Assembly: GCA_026390435.1 (NCBI GenBank)
Contig: JAPLFY010000041.1
Location: 1 to 64,000, forward strand
DNA: 64,000 bases
From: Pseudomonadota bacterium
GTDB lineage: Bacteria > Bdellovibrionota_B > Oligoflexia > Oligoflexales > CAIYRB01
Reading direction: 5' to 3'
Part shown: positions 47-51,532 of the stretch, in pieces
How the letters are laid out: every line of letters starts with the position of its first letter
Numbering within the stretch: the stretch's first letter is position 1
Position numbers and translations under genes: made by a program
Notes under the pieces: generated by a model
What the model saw: the letters and a program-made list of their open reading frames with translations, nothing else
Databases searched by the model: none
What the model was told of the DNA's origin: nothing

Positions 47-112
47 CCCTTCACTTAACTTTTTTTCAAAGTCGTTCGGGGTCAGCGAACCGGCTCAGTG
101 CCGAGGAAGGTG

Positions 113-140
113 AATGTACGCTCCTCGAATTATTTGTCAA
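113..140 (-). promoter_or_regulatory. Second tandem promoter, same direction (rrn-like, distal)
   Basis: A second perfect TTGACA (135-140, minus strand) is followed after 16 bases by TACATT (113-118). Spacing and orientation match the promoter about 94 bases downstream. Two tandem promoters with perfect -35 boxes resemble a P1/P2 arrangement of a stable-RNA operon lying just beyond the left edge. It starts about 30 bases after the stop of the exonuclease gene, so it serves a new transcription unit. Confidence 0.55.
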
Positions 141-169
141 CAACTGCATCGCTCTTTTTCAAAATTTCT

Positions 170-946
170 TCAAATGCGTTTGAGATCATATTCAACTACC
201 AGCGGCGCATGGTCGGAAAAGCGAGCCTTGGTATATATCTCAGCCGACCGAACCTTGGGCGCTAGCTCCGGGGATATAACCTGATAATCAATTCGCCATC
301 CAACATTGTTCTCATATGCAGCGCCGCGATTCGACCACCAAGTGTACTGGTCAGCCTCTTGGTTAACGACACGAAATGCATCCACATACCCCAGGCGCCC
401 GAGAACGCTGTCCATCCACGCTCGCTCAAGTGGGAGAAAACCTGAGTTCTTTTTATTTCCGCGCCAGTTCTTTAAGTCAATTTCACGATGCGCTATATTC
501 CAATCTCCGCAAATTATGAAATGACGCTTACTTCGACGAAACCCTTCGAGCTTGTGCGTTAAATGATCGAGCATATCGTACTTGATATACTGACGCTCCG
601 GACTAGCCGAGCCTGACGGGAAGTAAATAGAAATTATTGATAGATCCGGATAATCAAGCTGAAGATAGCGCCCCTCTGATTCCAAAGATGGCAACCCCAT
701 ATCCGTGGTTATATTTTCCGGTTTACCCCGAGCATAAACTGCCACACCACTATATCCAGGGCGTTCCGCCAGATGAAAATGAGCTTCGTAGCCTTCCAAT
801 GCCGACGCTTCCTCAGGTAAATCCTCAAGCTTTGCCCGGACTTCTTGTAGACAAATGAAATCGGCCCCTTGTTCGACTAACCAGGCCCAAATGCCCTTGC
901 TTGTAGCAGAACGGATGCCATTCACATTGCATGTGATGACTTTCAT
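170..946 (-). CDS. xthA: Exodeoxyribonuclease III (AP endonuclease family)
   Basis: 258 residues, full length for the ExoIII/APE1 family of DNA repair enzymes, which cut abasic sites and degrade 3' ends. The N-terminus has the family pattern MKVITCNVNGIR followed by the metal-binding Glu in CLQEVRA. The centre has GDWNIAH (catalytic Asp/Asn pair), and the C-terminus has the RIDY and FSDHAPL motifs carrying the last Asp-His pair. The start is the ATG at 944-946. The gene stands alone on the minus strand between the tRNA-Thr gene and the outward promoters. Family assignment is secure; E. coli-like specificity is inferred. Confidence 0.95.
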   Translation of the reverse strand: MKVITCNVNGIRSATSKGIWAWLVEQGADFICLQEVRAKLEDLPEEASALEGYEAHFHLAERPGYSGVAVYARGKPENITTDMGLPSLESEGRYLQLDYPDLSIISIYFPSGSASPERQYIKYDMLDHLTHKLEGFRRSKRHFIICGDWNIAHREIDLKNWRGNKKNSGFLPLERAWMDSVLGRLGYVDAFRVVNQEADQYTWWSNRGAAYENNVGWRIDYQVISPELAPKVRSAEIYTKARFSDHAPLVVEYDLKRI

Positions 947-48323: not shown

Positions 48324-48613
48324 GGGTTGCCCCTATAATCGCCCATCACAAAGAGATGGATGAGGCTGAAAGAAAGAAGATCGCTTCTGCTCCTATTTTA
48401 AGCCCGCCGCTGCGCAGTGTCAGCGGGCAGAAACTGCCGCCCCAGTGATGCTGAAAACTGCGACCTACCAATGCTGCGAATGCAGGGTTGACCGCTACCG
48501 TTAATAAATGCTAAGGAAAAAAAGAGAACTTTCGGAATATTCAATAAATTCAAGCGGCGCCCGCTGACGTACCAACTTGTGTGCGGCTACGGTTCTAACG
48601 CCGCTAAACCGTG
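48324..48613. other. Intergenic region between motA and the regulator gene
   Basis: About 290 bases between divergent genes. There is an imperfect GC-rich hairpin near 48403-48430, and a TTGACC box (48488-48493) on the plus strand without a convincing -10. I see no coding frame with codon structure and no RNA gene. Confidence 0.45.
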
Positions 48614-48626
48614 GATCTCAGAGATC
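48614..48626. promoter_or_regulatory. Operator-like dyad upstream of the HTH regulator gene
   Basis: GATCTC-A-GAGATC, a perfect 6-1-6 dyad, lies 20 bases before the ATG of the XRE-type regulator, in the position expected for an autoregulatory operator. Only one copy is seen in the upstream region; binding is inferred. Confidence 0.35.
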
Positions 48627-48645
48627 TGGTCGAGGGCGTTTGACC

Positions 48646-49563
48646 ATGAAGAAGGCGACAGAAATAAAGTACCCTAATTCGGCAAACCTCTTTCAGTTTT
48701 GTCGTCGCGTTCTCGATCAAAAATTCGGTGGCGTCCGCGTTATTGACCAAGACATCGGTCAGATTCTCGGCTTTGACCCAGCCGATTGCAGCCATTGGAA
48801 AAAGGGGAAAAAGAATGTGCGCTCGATCCAAGCTATGAAATCGATCGCAGAGCACCTTGGCATCGATGAACGCTTGGTTATTGATGTCGCTGCCGGCGAT
48901 TTAGACGATGCCGAAGCTTTTTATGAATTCAACGGATATGGCGCTTTTAGCATAGACCCAAAAGCCTTCGATGCAGCGAAAAAGGACTTCTATCGCCGCC
49001 ATTCCGCCACTTGGAGCAAGGATAAGGAGGCCGAATTTAAAGACGCCTCAACTATCAACGAAGCTGCCGTCGATCAGGCCGTGGAGGCTATCCACAAACG
49101 CATCGGATTCAGTGAAGCACCACTCTACTTACCTGAGATATCCGCTGCATTTCCCGAGCTATCACTGTCCCCCACCGAGGCCGAACCAAATAGCGACAAC
49201 AATAAGTCCCAAACCATAACGATTAATCATCGAGGTGCGCAAACCCAGGTTATCTATAGACAAGGCAGCGAACTAAAACCGTTCATGCGCTTTCAAATAG
49301 CTAAAGCACTGGCGTCTCACTTCCTTCCCGATCTCAGATCAAAGACAGATAAAATTCCAGAATTCACGGCTCATCTGATCGATGTTCAAAGCAACCTATT
49401 TGCCGCCAAACTTCTGGCGCCAGCCAATCTAATTCGTAAGGAGATCGCTCAGGTAAACGTGGCACGAGACGTAGTGACACAGCTAGCGGAGGCATTCTGG
49501 GTATCCAAGGCCTTCATGAACATGAGACTCAAAGATATCCTACAAAATGCGCACGCCTTATAA
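48646..49563 (+). CDS. XRE-type regulator with degenerate ImmA/IrrE-like domain
   Basis: 305 residues from the ATG at 48646 (GAGGGCG about eight bases upstream); the frame opens 69 bases earlier without a ribosome-binding site. Residues about 10-75 form a helix-turn-helix (IDQDIGQILGFDPADCSHWK, SIQAMKSIAEHLGI). The C-terminal half (about 165-305) has the layout of ImmA/IrrE metallopeptidase domains, but where HExxH is expected it reads RFQIAKALASHF, and the later segment is LIDVQSNLFAAKLLAPANLI without the metal-binding Glu. It is thus probably a non-catalytic sensor or scaffold. Confidence 0.65.
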   Translation: MKKATEIKYPNSANLFQFCRRVLDQKFGGVRVIDQDIGQILGFDPADCSHWKKGKKNVRSIQAMKSIAEHLGIDERLVIDVAAGDLDDAEAFYEFNGYGAFSIDPKAFDAAKKDFYRRHSATWSKDKEAEFKDASTINEAAVDQAVEAIHKRIGFSEAPLYLPEISAAFPELSLSPTEAEPNSDNNKSQTITINHRGAQTQVIYRQGSELKPFMRFQIAKALASHFLPDLRSKTDKIPEFTAHLIDVQSNLFAAKLLAPANLIRKEIAQVNVARDVVTQLAEAFWVSKAFMNMRLKDILQNAHAL

Positions 49564-49737
49564 TTTAGACCGCCCCAACTAAATATCCAACTATCTGTTT
49601 TTCCTAATTTATTCTAAGGTGTGGGCAGTCTAGCAAGGCCTCGCCTTGCCTCTATTTATAATTTTAATTTCAGAAAGCTAAACTGCTGCCGATAACTTGG
49701 GTGGGATAAGGGTGTTGAGGTAGTTTAGGGACACTAT

Positions 49738-50745
49738 ATGAACATAAAGAAGCAAAATCTTTCCTTGTTCGGGGCACTGATAGCAGCCTTTTGCTGCGCC
49801 GTAGCTGGGCGGGCTGTCGCGCAATCGACCCCCGAGGAGCCCGAAGCCATGGCTGCGCCTGCGCCCCAACCTGAGCCCGCGGTTGAAGCCGCCCCAGAGC
49901 CAAGTGCTGCTGGTGCATCCAAAAAAGACAAAAAGACGAACGATGTAGAGACCGACTTCCCGCCGGTTCCAGATACCCCAGGCATCCGCAAAACATTCTC
50001 GAAGAGCGAATTCGCCAAGATCTGCGCTCAGGTCGAAGGCAAATTGATTGCATATTATGACGATATATACCGCGTCGAGCAGTGCCACAGACGTCAGCTT
50101 CGCGATAATAAAACAGTCTATAACCTGCAGCGGGAAGGTCACCGCGTGCAAGACGTAGACAGCGATGTGATTGCAGCCCTGCCAGAGGGTGAACCGTTAG
50201 ACGAGGCTATCACGCTAAAAAATGCGCGTGGCTGCAATAAACTCGACGGAACTTACGTGACCTATTCTAACGTAGACGTCTATTTCGTCGAACATTGTAA
50301 GAAGCGCATCTTTCCTGACTGGATGAGCTACATCAAGCACCGCGAGCGCAGACATGACAAGAAAGGCGAAATCCTTTCGCTTAGCTGGATTGAATTCGAC
50401 CGATTGCCACCGGGCCCACCAATCCGCTCGATAGTCGACGATATGTTTGCGAAGATGCTCTCGGGTGAGGCAGGGGTTGAAGTCATCCCCGTCGACGAGG
50501 CGTGCGCTGGCTTGGAAGGCAAAATTTCTTCTTATTACTCCTACCTGTACCGCGTAGAAAAATGCCGCAAACGTGAGATCACCTCGCCAGAGCTCTTCCT
50601 AAAGAAAGCGGGAGTCAATAAAATTGCTATCTACGAAATGAGTAGCGAGCAGTGGTTATCACTTCCGAATGGGGCGCCGATCTCGACTAAGCCCGACGTG
50701 GCCCCACAAGCTCCGATCGAATATAAGCCTAAGTGGCGTAAATAA
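49738..50745 (+). CDS. Exported protein with three Cys-containing repeats
   Basis: 335 residues: signal peptide 1-28 (LIAAFCCAVAGRAVAQ), an Ala/Pro/Glu-rich linker to about 75, then three related repeats. Each has a Cys, a Gly a few residues later, a Tyr-rich middle and a closing Cys-x-[KR]-[KR] or close: CAQVEGKLIAYYDDIYRVEQ-C, CNKLDGTYVTYSNVDVYFVEH-C and CAGLEGKISSYYSYLYRVEK-C. Each repeat is followed by a segment with a small Leu-Pro-x-Gly/P motif (ALPEGEPLD, RLPPGPPIR, SLPNGAPIS). One Cys pair per repeat suggests disulfides. I do not know the family. Confidence 0.7.
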   Translation: MNIKKQNLSLFGALIAAFCCAVAGRAVAQSTPEEPEAMAAPAPQPEPAVEAAPEPSAAGASKKDKKTNDVETDFPPVPDTPGIRKTFSKSEFAKICAQVEGKLIAYYDDIYRVEQCHRRQLRDNKTVYNLQREGHRVQDVDSDVIAALPEGEPLDEAITLKNARGCNKLDGTYVTYSNVDVYFVEHCKKRIFPDWMSYIKHRERRHDKKGEILSLSWIEFDRLPPGPPIRSIVDDMFAKMLSGEAGVEVIPVDEACAGLEGKISSYYSYLYRVEKCRKREITSPELFLKKAGVNKIAIYEMSSEQWLSLPNGAPISTKPDVAPQAPIEYKPKWRK

Positions 50746-51004: not shown

Positions 51005-51532
51005 ATGCCGAAAGTTATGTCGAGTCAAAAGCCAACGCACGCCATTAAGCAATTCAAGGTCAAGCCTAAGTCGAAGTCCTTGTTTGGAATAAGTAAATGG
51101 TTCCGCCTGCCAGTCAAAAACGCTGCCTCCCCGCTGATTAAAGGAAACAAGATCATGAAGCCCAAGTCTCGTCGTTCATTCAAAGCCCTAATGATTGCCC
51201 TAGTGATTACACTAGGCGGGGGCTATGCCGTTTACCGCAATATGTTCATGCCAAAAGTTCAAGTTCAGCATGTCGCGAGACAATGGCTAGATAACTCAGC
51301 CGGTAAAAGCACCCAAGTATCCTCGTCCCGTAAGCCTATAAGACCAGCTTACCGGGCAAAACATAGTCGCCCCAGCCGCATCATGGGCTGCCATATTCCA
51401 AGACACCATAAAGCAACGAAGCACCATTTAGCCAAGCACTCTAAGAAGCATAAAGGCAAAAAGCATCGCTTAGCCCACAAAAGCTCACGTCGCGCCCACA
51501 TGCACCAAACGACCTACCGCGCATCTAACTGA
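51005..51532 (+). CDS. His/Lys-rich single-span membrane protein
   Basis: 175 residues if started at the ATG at 51005. An ATG at 51155 has the better ribosome-binding site (AAAGGA) and would give 125 residues starting MKPKSRRSFKALMIALVITL. One membrane helix (ALMIALVITLGGGYAVY) is followed by a strongly basic C-terminal region with more than ten histidines (PRHHKATKHHLAKHSKKHKG). Such tails can bind metals or polyanions; no family is recognised. The theoretical charge is very positive. Confidence 0.5.
   Translation: MPKVMSSQKPTHAIKQFKVKPKSKSLFGISKWFRLPVKNAASPLIKGNKIMKPKSRRSFKALMIALVITLGGGYAVYRNMFMPKVQVQHVARQWLDNSAGKSTQVSSSRKPIRPAYRAKHSRPSRIMGCHIPRHHKATKHHLAKHSKKHKGKKHRLAHKSSRRAHMHQTTYRASN

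Follow-up and report, generated by a model that had tools for sequence, protein, structure and literature searches.

Among the described systems with which the protein analysed here was compared are the periplasmic repeats of EccB, which belongs to type VII secretion, and PlyCB, a phage lysin domain. The account of EccB1 (PMC4769845) describes repeats of 51-57 residues, each composed of a four-stranded sheet and two helices; one of the repeats weakly resembles PlyCB (DALI Z of 5.0). Its authors suggest that these repeats could bind peptidoglycan, an idea that is echoed in PMC6986878.

A protein composed of three short repeats, here called units, is encoded in the window (the whole stretch of 64,000 nucleotides that was analysed). 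The EccB1 repeats, R1-R4, are short sheet-plus-two-helices elements of an envelope protein (PMC4769845), an arrangement that the unit may resemble, but the fold matches between them and the unit are insignificant. In addition, the disulfide that this source describes for EccB1 is located in the core domain (PMC4769845), whereas the three-unit protein probably has one in each repeat. Unlike the three-unit protein, EccB has a predicted transmembrane helix in addition to its core domain. A second likeness is that to tandem repeats devoid of Cys pairs. The three-unit family is nameless in the libraries searched, yet it is a variant of this existing, uncurated repeat.

The three-unit protein and its gene

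The open reading frame (ORF) at 49738-50745 (+) starts with ATG and codes for 335 amino acids (Table 1). The signal peptide has a basic start, a hydrophobic core and AVA preceding Q. A hydrophobic N-terminal stretch is also present in many other members of the family, often with AxA-Q-D/E at its end. Once the signal peptide is removed, the mature protein would consist of a flexible linker bearing three tandem units. The linker differs among members in length and in sequence (alignment A2), and the C-terminal tail is missing or unlike in many of them.

Table 1. Features of the three-unit gene and of the sequences adjoining it (positions in the window).
Feature	Position	Strand	Evidence
HTH/M78-type gene	48577-49563	+	PF06114 at 22.6 bits, cut-off 22; HTH by inspection
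Terminator-like hairpin	49633..49649	+	between HTH/M78-type gene and three-unit gene
Signal peptide (residues 1-28, MNIKKQ..RAVA|QSTP)	49738..49821	+	sequence; cleavage site by inspection
Linker (residues 29-92), Ala/Pro/Glu-rich, then charged	49822..50013	+	member alignment A2
Unit 1 (residues 93-159)	50014..50214	+	unit-profile match 50017-50205, E 1.2e-23 (this unit is itself a row of the profile)
Unit 1 Cys codons	50023-50025 and 50083-50085	+	
Unit 2 (residues 163-234)	50224..50439	+	unit-profile match 50227-50433, E 1.7e-22 (this unit is itself a row of the profile)
Unit 2 Cys codons	50233-50235 and 50296-50298	+	
Unit 3 (residues 253-320)	50494..50697	+	unit-profile match 50494-50694, E 2.0e-22 (this unit is itself a row of the profile)
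Unit 3 Cys codons	50503-50505 and 50563-50565	+	
C-terminal tail, short, Pro-rich, and stop codon	50698..50745	+	
Small Lys-rich ORF	51005-51532	same strand as three-unit gene	no Pfam match

The original prediction placed in this ORF three repeats that have diverged but keep one Cys pair each, and the analysis bears it out. The Cys residues of the units are 96/116, 166/187 and 256/276; two others, Cys 19 and 20, are within the signal peptide. Self-alignment of the protein gave pairwise BLOSUM62 scores of 57 (units 1 and 2), 95 (units 1 and 3) and 53 (units 2 and 3), against a mean of about 23 for shuffled unit pairs, and the observed score was reached in none of the 1000 shuffles of each pair. 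When profiles of the units (39 members each) were compared by hhalign, the E values were 9.1e-15 (1 vs 2), 2.7e-19 (1 vs 3) and 6.1e-15 (2 vs 3). Unit alignments, shuffles and profile comparisons thus confirm that the three-unit repeat is genuine.

In the window protein, the motif can be written as C-x3-[ED]-G-[KT]-x3-Y-[YS] .. Y-x-V-E-x-C-x-[KR]-R .. L-P-x-G-x-P-[LI], with Cys spacings of 20, 21 and 20 residues in units 1, 2 and 3, respectively. The Leu-Pro-x-Gly/Pro element that had been noted after the second Cys is the end of each unit. The predicted unit size of 75-100 residues, however, needs correction: homology between the units stands, but the homologous core comprises about 65-72 residues, the larger figure having included linkers.

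Distribution of the three-unit protein

The full-length profile (39 rows) matched 55 of the 58 genomes of the window's phylum and none of the 325 genomes outside it. In this count over 383 genomes, up to six first-look candidates were scored per genome; with all candidates scored in the phylum alone, the result was again 55 of 58. The phylum genomes without a full-length match are G025 (93% complete), G040 (75%) and G057 (72%). A search with the single protein gave 55 of 56, including G040 (E 0.099), whose weak match to the leader region is not counted. The window's relative L002 is 96% identical.

As a rule there is one gene per genome. Of the 56 phylum genomes matched by the unit profile, 52 had exactly three matches, the exceptions being G001 and G051 (four each) and G037 and G040 (one each); in G001, a second contig carries a fragment. 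In eight genomes, all candidates were scored, and no further place with convincing units came to light; two extra matches in G048 had E values of 0.43 and 0.81. The three-unit protein is, therefore, a lineage-wide, single-copy hallmark of its lineage, which is probably the class Oligoflexia, and it can serve as a single-copy marker for this little-studied group. A search for 16S genes gave none in the window's genome and detected them in two of four relatives. Its once-per-genome presence is most simply explained by vertical descent, as judged from its occurrence.

One family of the order (f11) departs from this picture. The protein was not found in G025, a single recognisable and strongly diverged unit is present in G037, and the match in G040 is weak and fragment-like. 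This pattern may reflect a lineage-specific decay.

Conservation of the cysteine pairs

Fifty-three members were parsed. They represent all 55 genomes with a match except G056 and the genome of the window itself, for which L002 stands in; two of the 53, L052 and L053, look identical. The Cys pairs at the aligned columns are complete in 158 of 159 units, half lost in none and absent in one. The only absent pair is that of L055, although the usual six Cys are present in its three-unit region. Counted from the first Cys of unit 1 up to the C-terminus, a stretch that amounts to 12,385 residues over the 53 members, each protein has exactly six Cys. Only Cys is invariant or nearly so when 39 members are aligned. 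Partners are 20-21 residues apart in most members (38 of 39 for unit 1 and 37 of 39 for unit 2), and in unit 3 the spacing is 20 in 33 of 39.

Such concerted conservation without stray Cys is as expected from three structural disulfides formed in an oxidising compartment, and strongly suggests three intra-unit disulfides, one per unit. Of the disulfide machinery, the search covered DsbB (PF02600), which was detected in only one of nine genomes, eight of which carry the three-unit protein; this counts against the disulfide reading.

Selection acts differently on the two parts of the protein. Between the window and L002, the dN/dS ratio is 0.042 for residues 89-320 (five nonsynonymous and 30 synonymous changes) and 0.56 for residues 1-88, the leader and linker (12 nonsynonymous and seven synonymous), as estimated by the Nei-Gojobori method from the few changes available. 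The units are therefore what selection keeps.

A basic character is common at the three positions that follow the second Cys. The fraction of the 53 members with Lys or Arg at these positions is 0.55, 0.68 and 0.51 in unit 1, 0.71, 0.90 and 0.88 in unit 2, and 0.58, 0.85 and 0.72 in unit 3. The net charge of the three-unit region ranges from -8 to +28, being positive in 40 of the 53 members; a simple charge-driven mechanism is therefore not uniform across the family.

Comparison with named families

The original prediction knew of no named family with this pattern, and searches of Pfam, NCBIfam, PHROGs and PDB sequences uphold that view. For the window protein, Pfam gave no family at E<=10, and the best matches in NCBIfam (0.075; 12 bits, cut-off 350) and PHROGs (0.12) are below-cut-off noise. 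The best PDB sequence matches, 0.21 with the window protein and 0.03 and 0.43 with profiles, are also noise. In individual scans of the 39 members, each Pfam family appeared in at most two of them among the best 25 of 31 families by member count, and each NCBIfam family in at most one. The strongest single-member matches were to Sel_put (3.1e-4), Rhabdo_M2 (4e-4), Evr1_Alr (4.1e-4) and TIGR00295 (8.6e-4), which are unrelated families. A match of the repeat to an established domain family was thus looked for and not obtained.

Relatives of the three-unit protein were not found in viral contigs (three query alignments) or in plasmids (best E of 0.9). Word searches on titles and the beginnings of abstracts gave no description of the three-unit family. 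The profile libraries searched contain no family for the three-unit protein, nor for the repeat superfamily to which it is linked.

Relatives of the unit devoid of cysteine pairs

A repeat of the unit's kind without Cys was expected to exist. When the unit profile was run over the 383 genomes, 14 genomes outside the phylum gave matches at E<=0.1, against roughly 32 expected by chance. One of them, G322, belongs to another phylum and showed four unit matches; searched alone, it gave five, all within one open frame of 2485 codons (L072, G322:C203:6000-13756). The part of this protein that was analysed contains 15 profile matches, 10 of them of positive score. Its repeats are of two alternating types, eight of type A and seven of type B, the type A repeat being 'DLIRMTGDLTVYYIQNGQRRGIPGETF..LLHFSQ.NVKEITQTQMNTISLGTALPS'. 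The array is followed in the same frame by sequence that on inspection is of the YD/RHS type.

Summed over the G322 array, the unit profile A3 reaches 100.3 bits, with 13.5 bits for the best single repeat; none of 243 control ORFs exceeded 4.8 bits. The part of the unit past the second Cys reaches 36.3 bits on its own, against 4.8 in the controls. Residue shuffles gave a positive match in 0 of 200 cases. In hhalign comparisons with type A, units 1, 2 and 3 had E values of 1e-7, 1.8e-8 and 5.9e-5, respectively, whereas control versions of type A (one reversed and five column-shuffled) gave 0.044-0.77 with unit 2. Against type B, units 1 and 2 had E values of 8.9e-5 and 3e-5; unit 3 (E 0.14) did not match.

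The repeats without Cys were in turn searched in the 383 genomes, where matches were found in G322, G144 (E 1.3e-6) and G246 (E 0.001). The last value is near chance, since it would arise about once in 383 genomes, and G246 is linked through the Cys-less profile only. The Cys-less form is probably also present in G144 and G246, as judged from these matches. At 86-589 (+) of locus L075, G144 has an open frame of 168 residues with a hydrophobic start and apparently two Cys-less repeats, for which neither Pfam nor NCBIfam gave a match. In the partly masked G246 locus (L076), apparent repeated domains precede the Cys-less repeat.

Besides G322, the outside-phylum unit matches are those of 13 genomes with E values of 0.01-0.1. 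Four of these (G217, G148, G370 and G065) were opened: one has a match of 20 residues with 15.1 bits, and in the other three no ORF of at least 60 residues scored more than 5 bits. No Cys-less repeat was found in plasmids at E<=0.001 and 0.01, in phages at E<=0.01, or in viral contigs.

The repeat of the G322, G144 and G246 type can be summarised as 'VYYIQNGQRRGIPxxTFxLLxF...VxEIT...L', and its elements follow the same order as those of the unit over about 60 residues. The tandem arrangement is also common to both: the window protein carries three units, and the G322 array has many more copies (15 profile matches). The G322-type repeat, however, lacks the Cys pair and has Asn-Gly or a similar turn where the unit has its second Cys. 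Such a turn without a Cys pair is not a feature of the three-unit family, in which 158 of 159 units have Cys at both positions. Given the profile link to the G322 repeats, the best reading is that the unit is a lineage-specific member, with Cys, of a repeat superfamily that is uncurated and is found in unrelated bacteria.

Pfam provided no convincing model for the G322 array. The best score, that of Dna2_Rift (8.2e-7), was discarded, since no single stretch passes and the value seems to add up weak matches to individual repeats. One G322 repeat is matched by positions 72-117 of the 118 of PHROG 9616, a phage protein of unknown function (E 1.7e-7). This PHROG is absent among the three-unit protein's own PHROG matches.

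Predicted fold

A full-length model built from two near-identical sequences had a pLDDT of 33 and was useless. The model of one unit, whose input was six rows (the three units of the window and of L002), reached a pLDDT of 64 with the order (short helix)-beta-beta-beta-alpha-alpha-beta. Foldseek found nothing significant for it in PDB or BFVD (best E of 0.67 and 0.71), and none of the 94 chains compared by VIA-align reached a Z of 2. With modest confidence, the unit may fold as a short helix, a small β-sheet, two short helices and a closing strand at L-P-x-G-x-P-I; the strands of the sheet are predicted around G-K-x-V-x-Y, around V-Y-x-V-E and in the basic stretch past the second Cys. A disulfide in each unit would link its beginning to the turn that follows the V-Y-x-V-E strand, where the relatives devoid of Cys have Asn-Gly.

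Possible role of the protein

Taken as a whole, the protein is tentatively regarded as an exported, Cys-clamped, three-unit protein that acts passively in the cell envelope, either in binding or as a scaffold, a reading to which we give slightly less than an even chance. A periplasmic or surface location is suggested by the signal peptide. The proposal of a new periplasmic domain holds in part: a periplasmic location would fit the signal peptide and the paired Cys, but the novelty is only half right, because unrelated bacteria have forms of the unit that lack the Cys pair. An envelope-binding role is only moderately likely; it is suggested by the export, the universality of the protein in its lineage, the basic cluster by the second Cys and the fact that a large protein that looks exported contains the repeat. 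In such a role, having three units would increase the avidity for a partner that is itself repetitive, be it the cell wall or a surface polymer, and the Arg/Lys cluster adjoining the second Cys of each unit would be the candidate contact. Were the cell wall to be what the units bind, the protein would be a new organiser of the envelope that is specific to its lineage, and its three units would offer a defined minimal case for the study of larger repeat arrays.

A wider version of this reading, in which the protein is a class-defining structural envelope protein with disulfide-locked wall- or polymer-binding units, and in which these units derive from an ancient, uncurated superfamily of wall-binding hairpin repeats that was also the source of EccB, PlyCB and tandem arrays of giant surface proteins, is unlikely. 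Slightly less probable still is a true relationship of the units to the EccB repeats and PlyCB, with a function in peptidoglycan anchoring. The element order of the unit model is similar to that of the EccB1 repeats, and EccB chains of six PDB entries (5cyu, 5ebc, 4kk7, 3x3m, 7np7 and 7nps) are among the 50 Foldseek rows listed. However, these matches have E values of 3.2-9.6 and probabilities of at most 0.08, and their recurrence means little because other, unrelated proteins take up comparable numbers of these 50 rows (BamB, eight; birnavirus VP1 polymerase, five; Cj1041c, five). Besides, the unit profile scores 0.8 bits on one EccB protein, and hhalign of the units against the EccB repeats (one protein, poor alignment) gave E values of 0.07-0.29 with a probability under 1%. 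PF05108 (EccB) has no match in the window protein and is present in one of the 383 genomes. The likeness to EccB and PlyCB is thus a lead, unsupported by sequence.

Alternatively, the protein could be a surface or secreted adhesin directed against hosts or prey and not a housekeeping envelope protein, which also seems unlikely, to about the same degree as the wider version. Spirobacillus cienkowskii, described as a parasite (PMC12321486), is a probable member of the lineage. Moreover, the Cys-less repeats are located within large exported-looking proteins, accompanied by YD/RHS-type sequence in G322 and by other repeated domains in G246 (by inspection). However, adhesins usually show expansion and variation, and the three-unit protein is a near-universal, single-copy protein with mostly three recognisable units that are under strong purifying selection. 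It is quite improbable that the Cys pairs are redox-active, or that they bind a metal or cofactor, as they would in a periplasmic protein of the thiol-disulfide or metal-handling kind. The export of the protein and its six conserved Cys would suit this function, as would weak matches to the Evr1_Alr sulfhydryl oxidase family (E 4.1e-4) and SelR (0.027), each in one of 39 members, but these are single members amid scattered unrelated families. The spacing of the partners in most members leaves no CxxC active site between them, homologues without Cys exist, and nothing but Cys is invariant or nearly so in the alignment. A thiol-disulfide oxidoreductase with CxxC and a thioredoxin fold was rejected on this spacing and on the absence of any Pfam match for the window protein. 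That the whole pattern is due to chance or to an annotation artefact is extremely improbable, being already refuted by the shuffles, the profile comparisons, the phylum-wide conservation and the dN/dS ratios.

Gene neighbourhood

The three-unit gene is solitary. MotA- and MotB-type genes and ClpS are located upstream on the opposite strand, and beyond them there is an ORF of 776 residues that resembles ClpA by inspection. No promoter-like site was found directly upstream of the three-unit gene. The terminator-like hairpin that precedes it is weak evidence for a separate transcript, two terminator-like sites having been found against a mean of 2.2 in shuffles.

Among 53 loci (the window included), examined with flanks of 1.5-3 kb for most of them, 10 have an HTH/M78-type gene nearby, 10 a motA-like gene and eight a clpS-like gene. 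This neighbourhood is partly common to some loci of the same order, and other neighbours are found outside that order within the class. Since neighbours differ between orders, there is no operon pointing to a function. The M78/IrrE-like match of the HTH-like regulator is borderline, and in the window this gene adjoins the motA-type gene.
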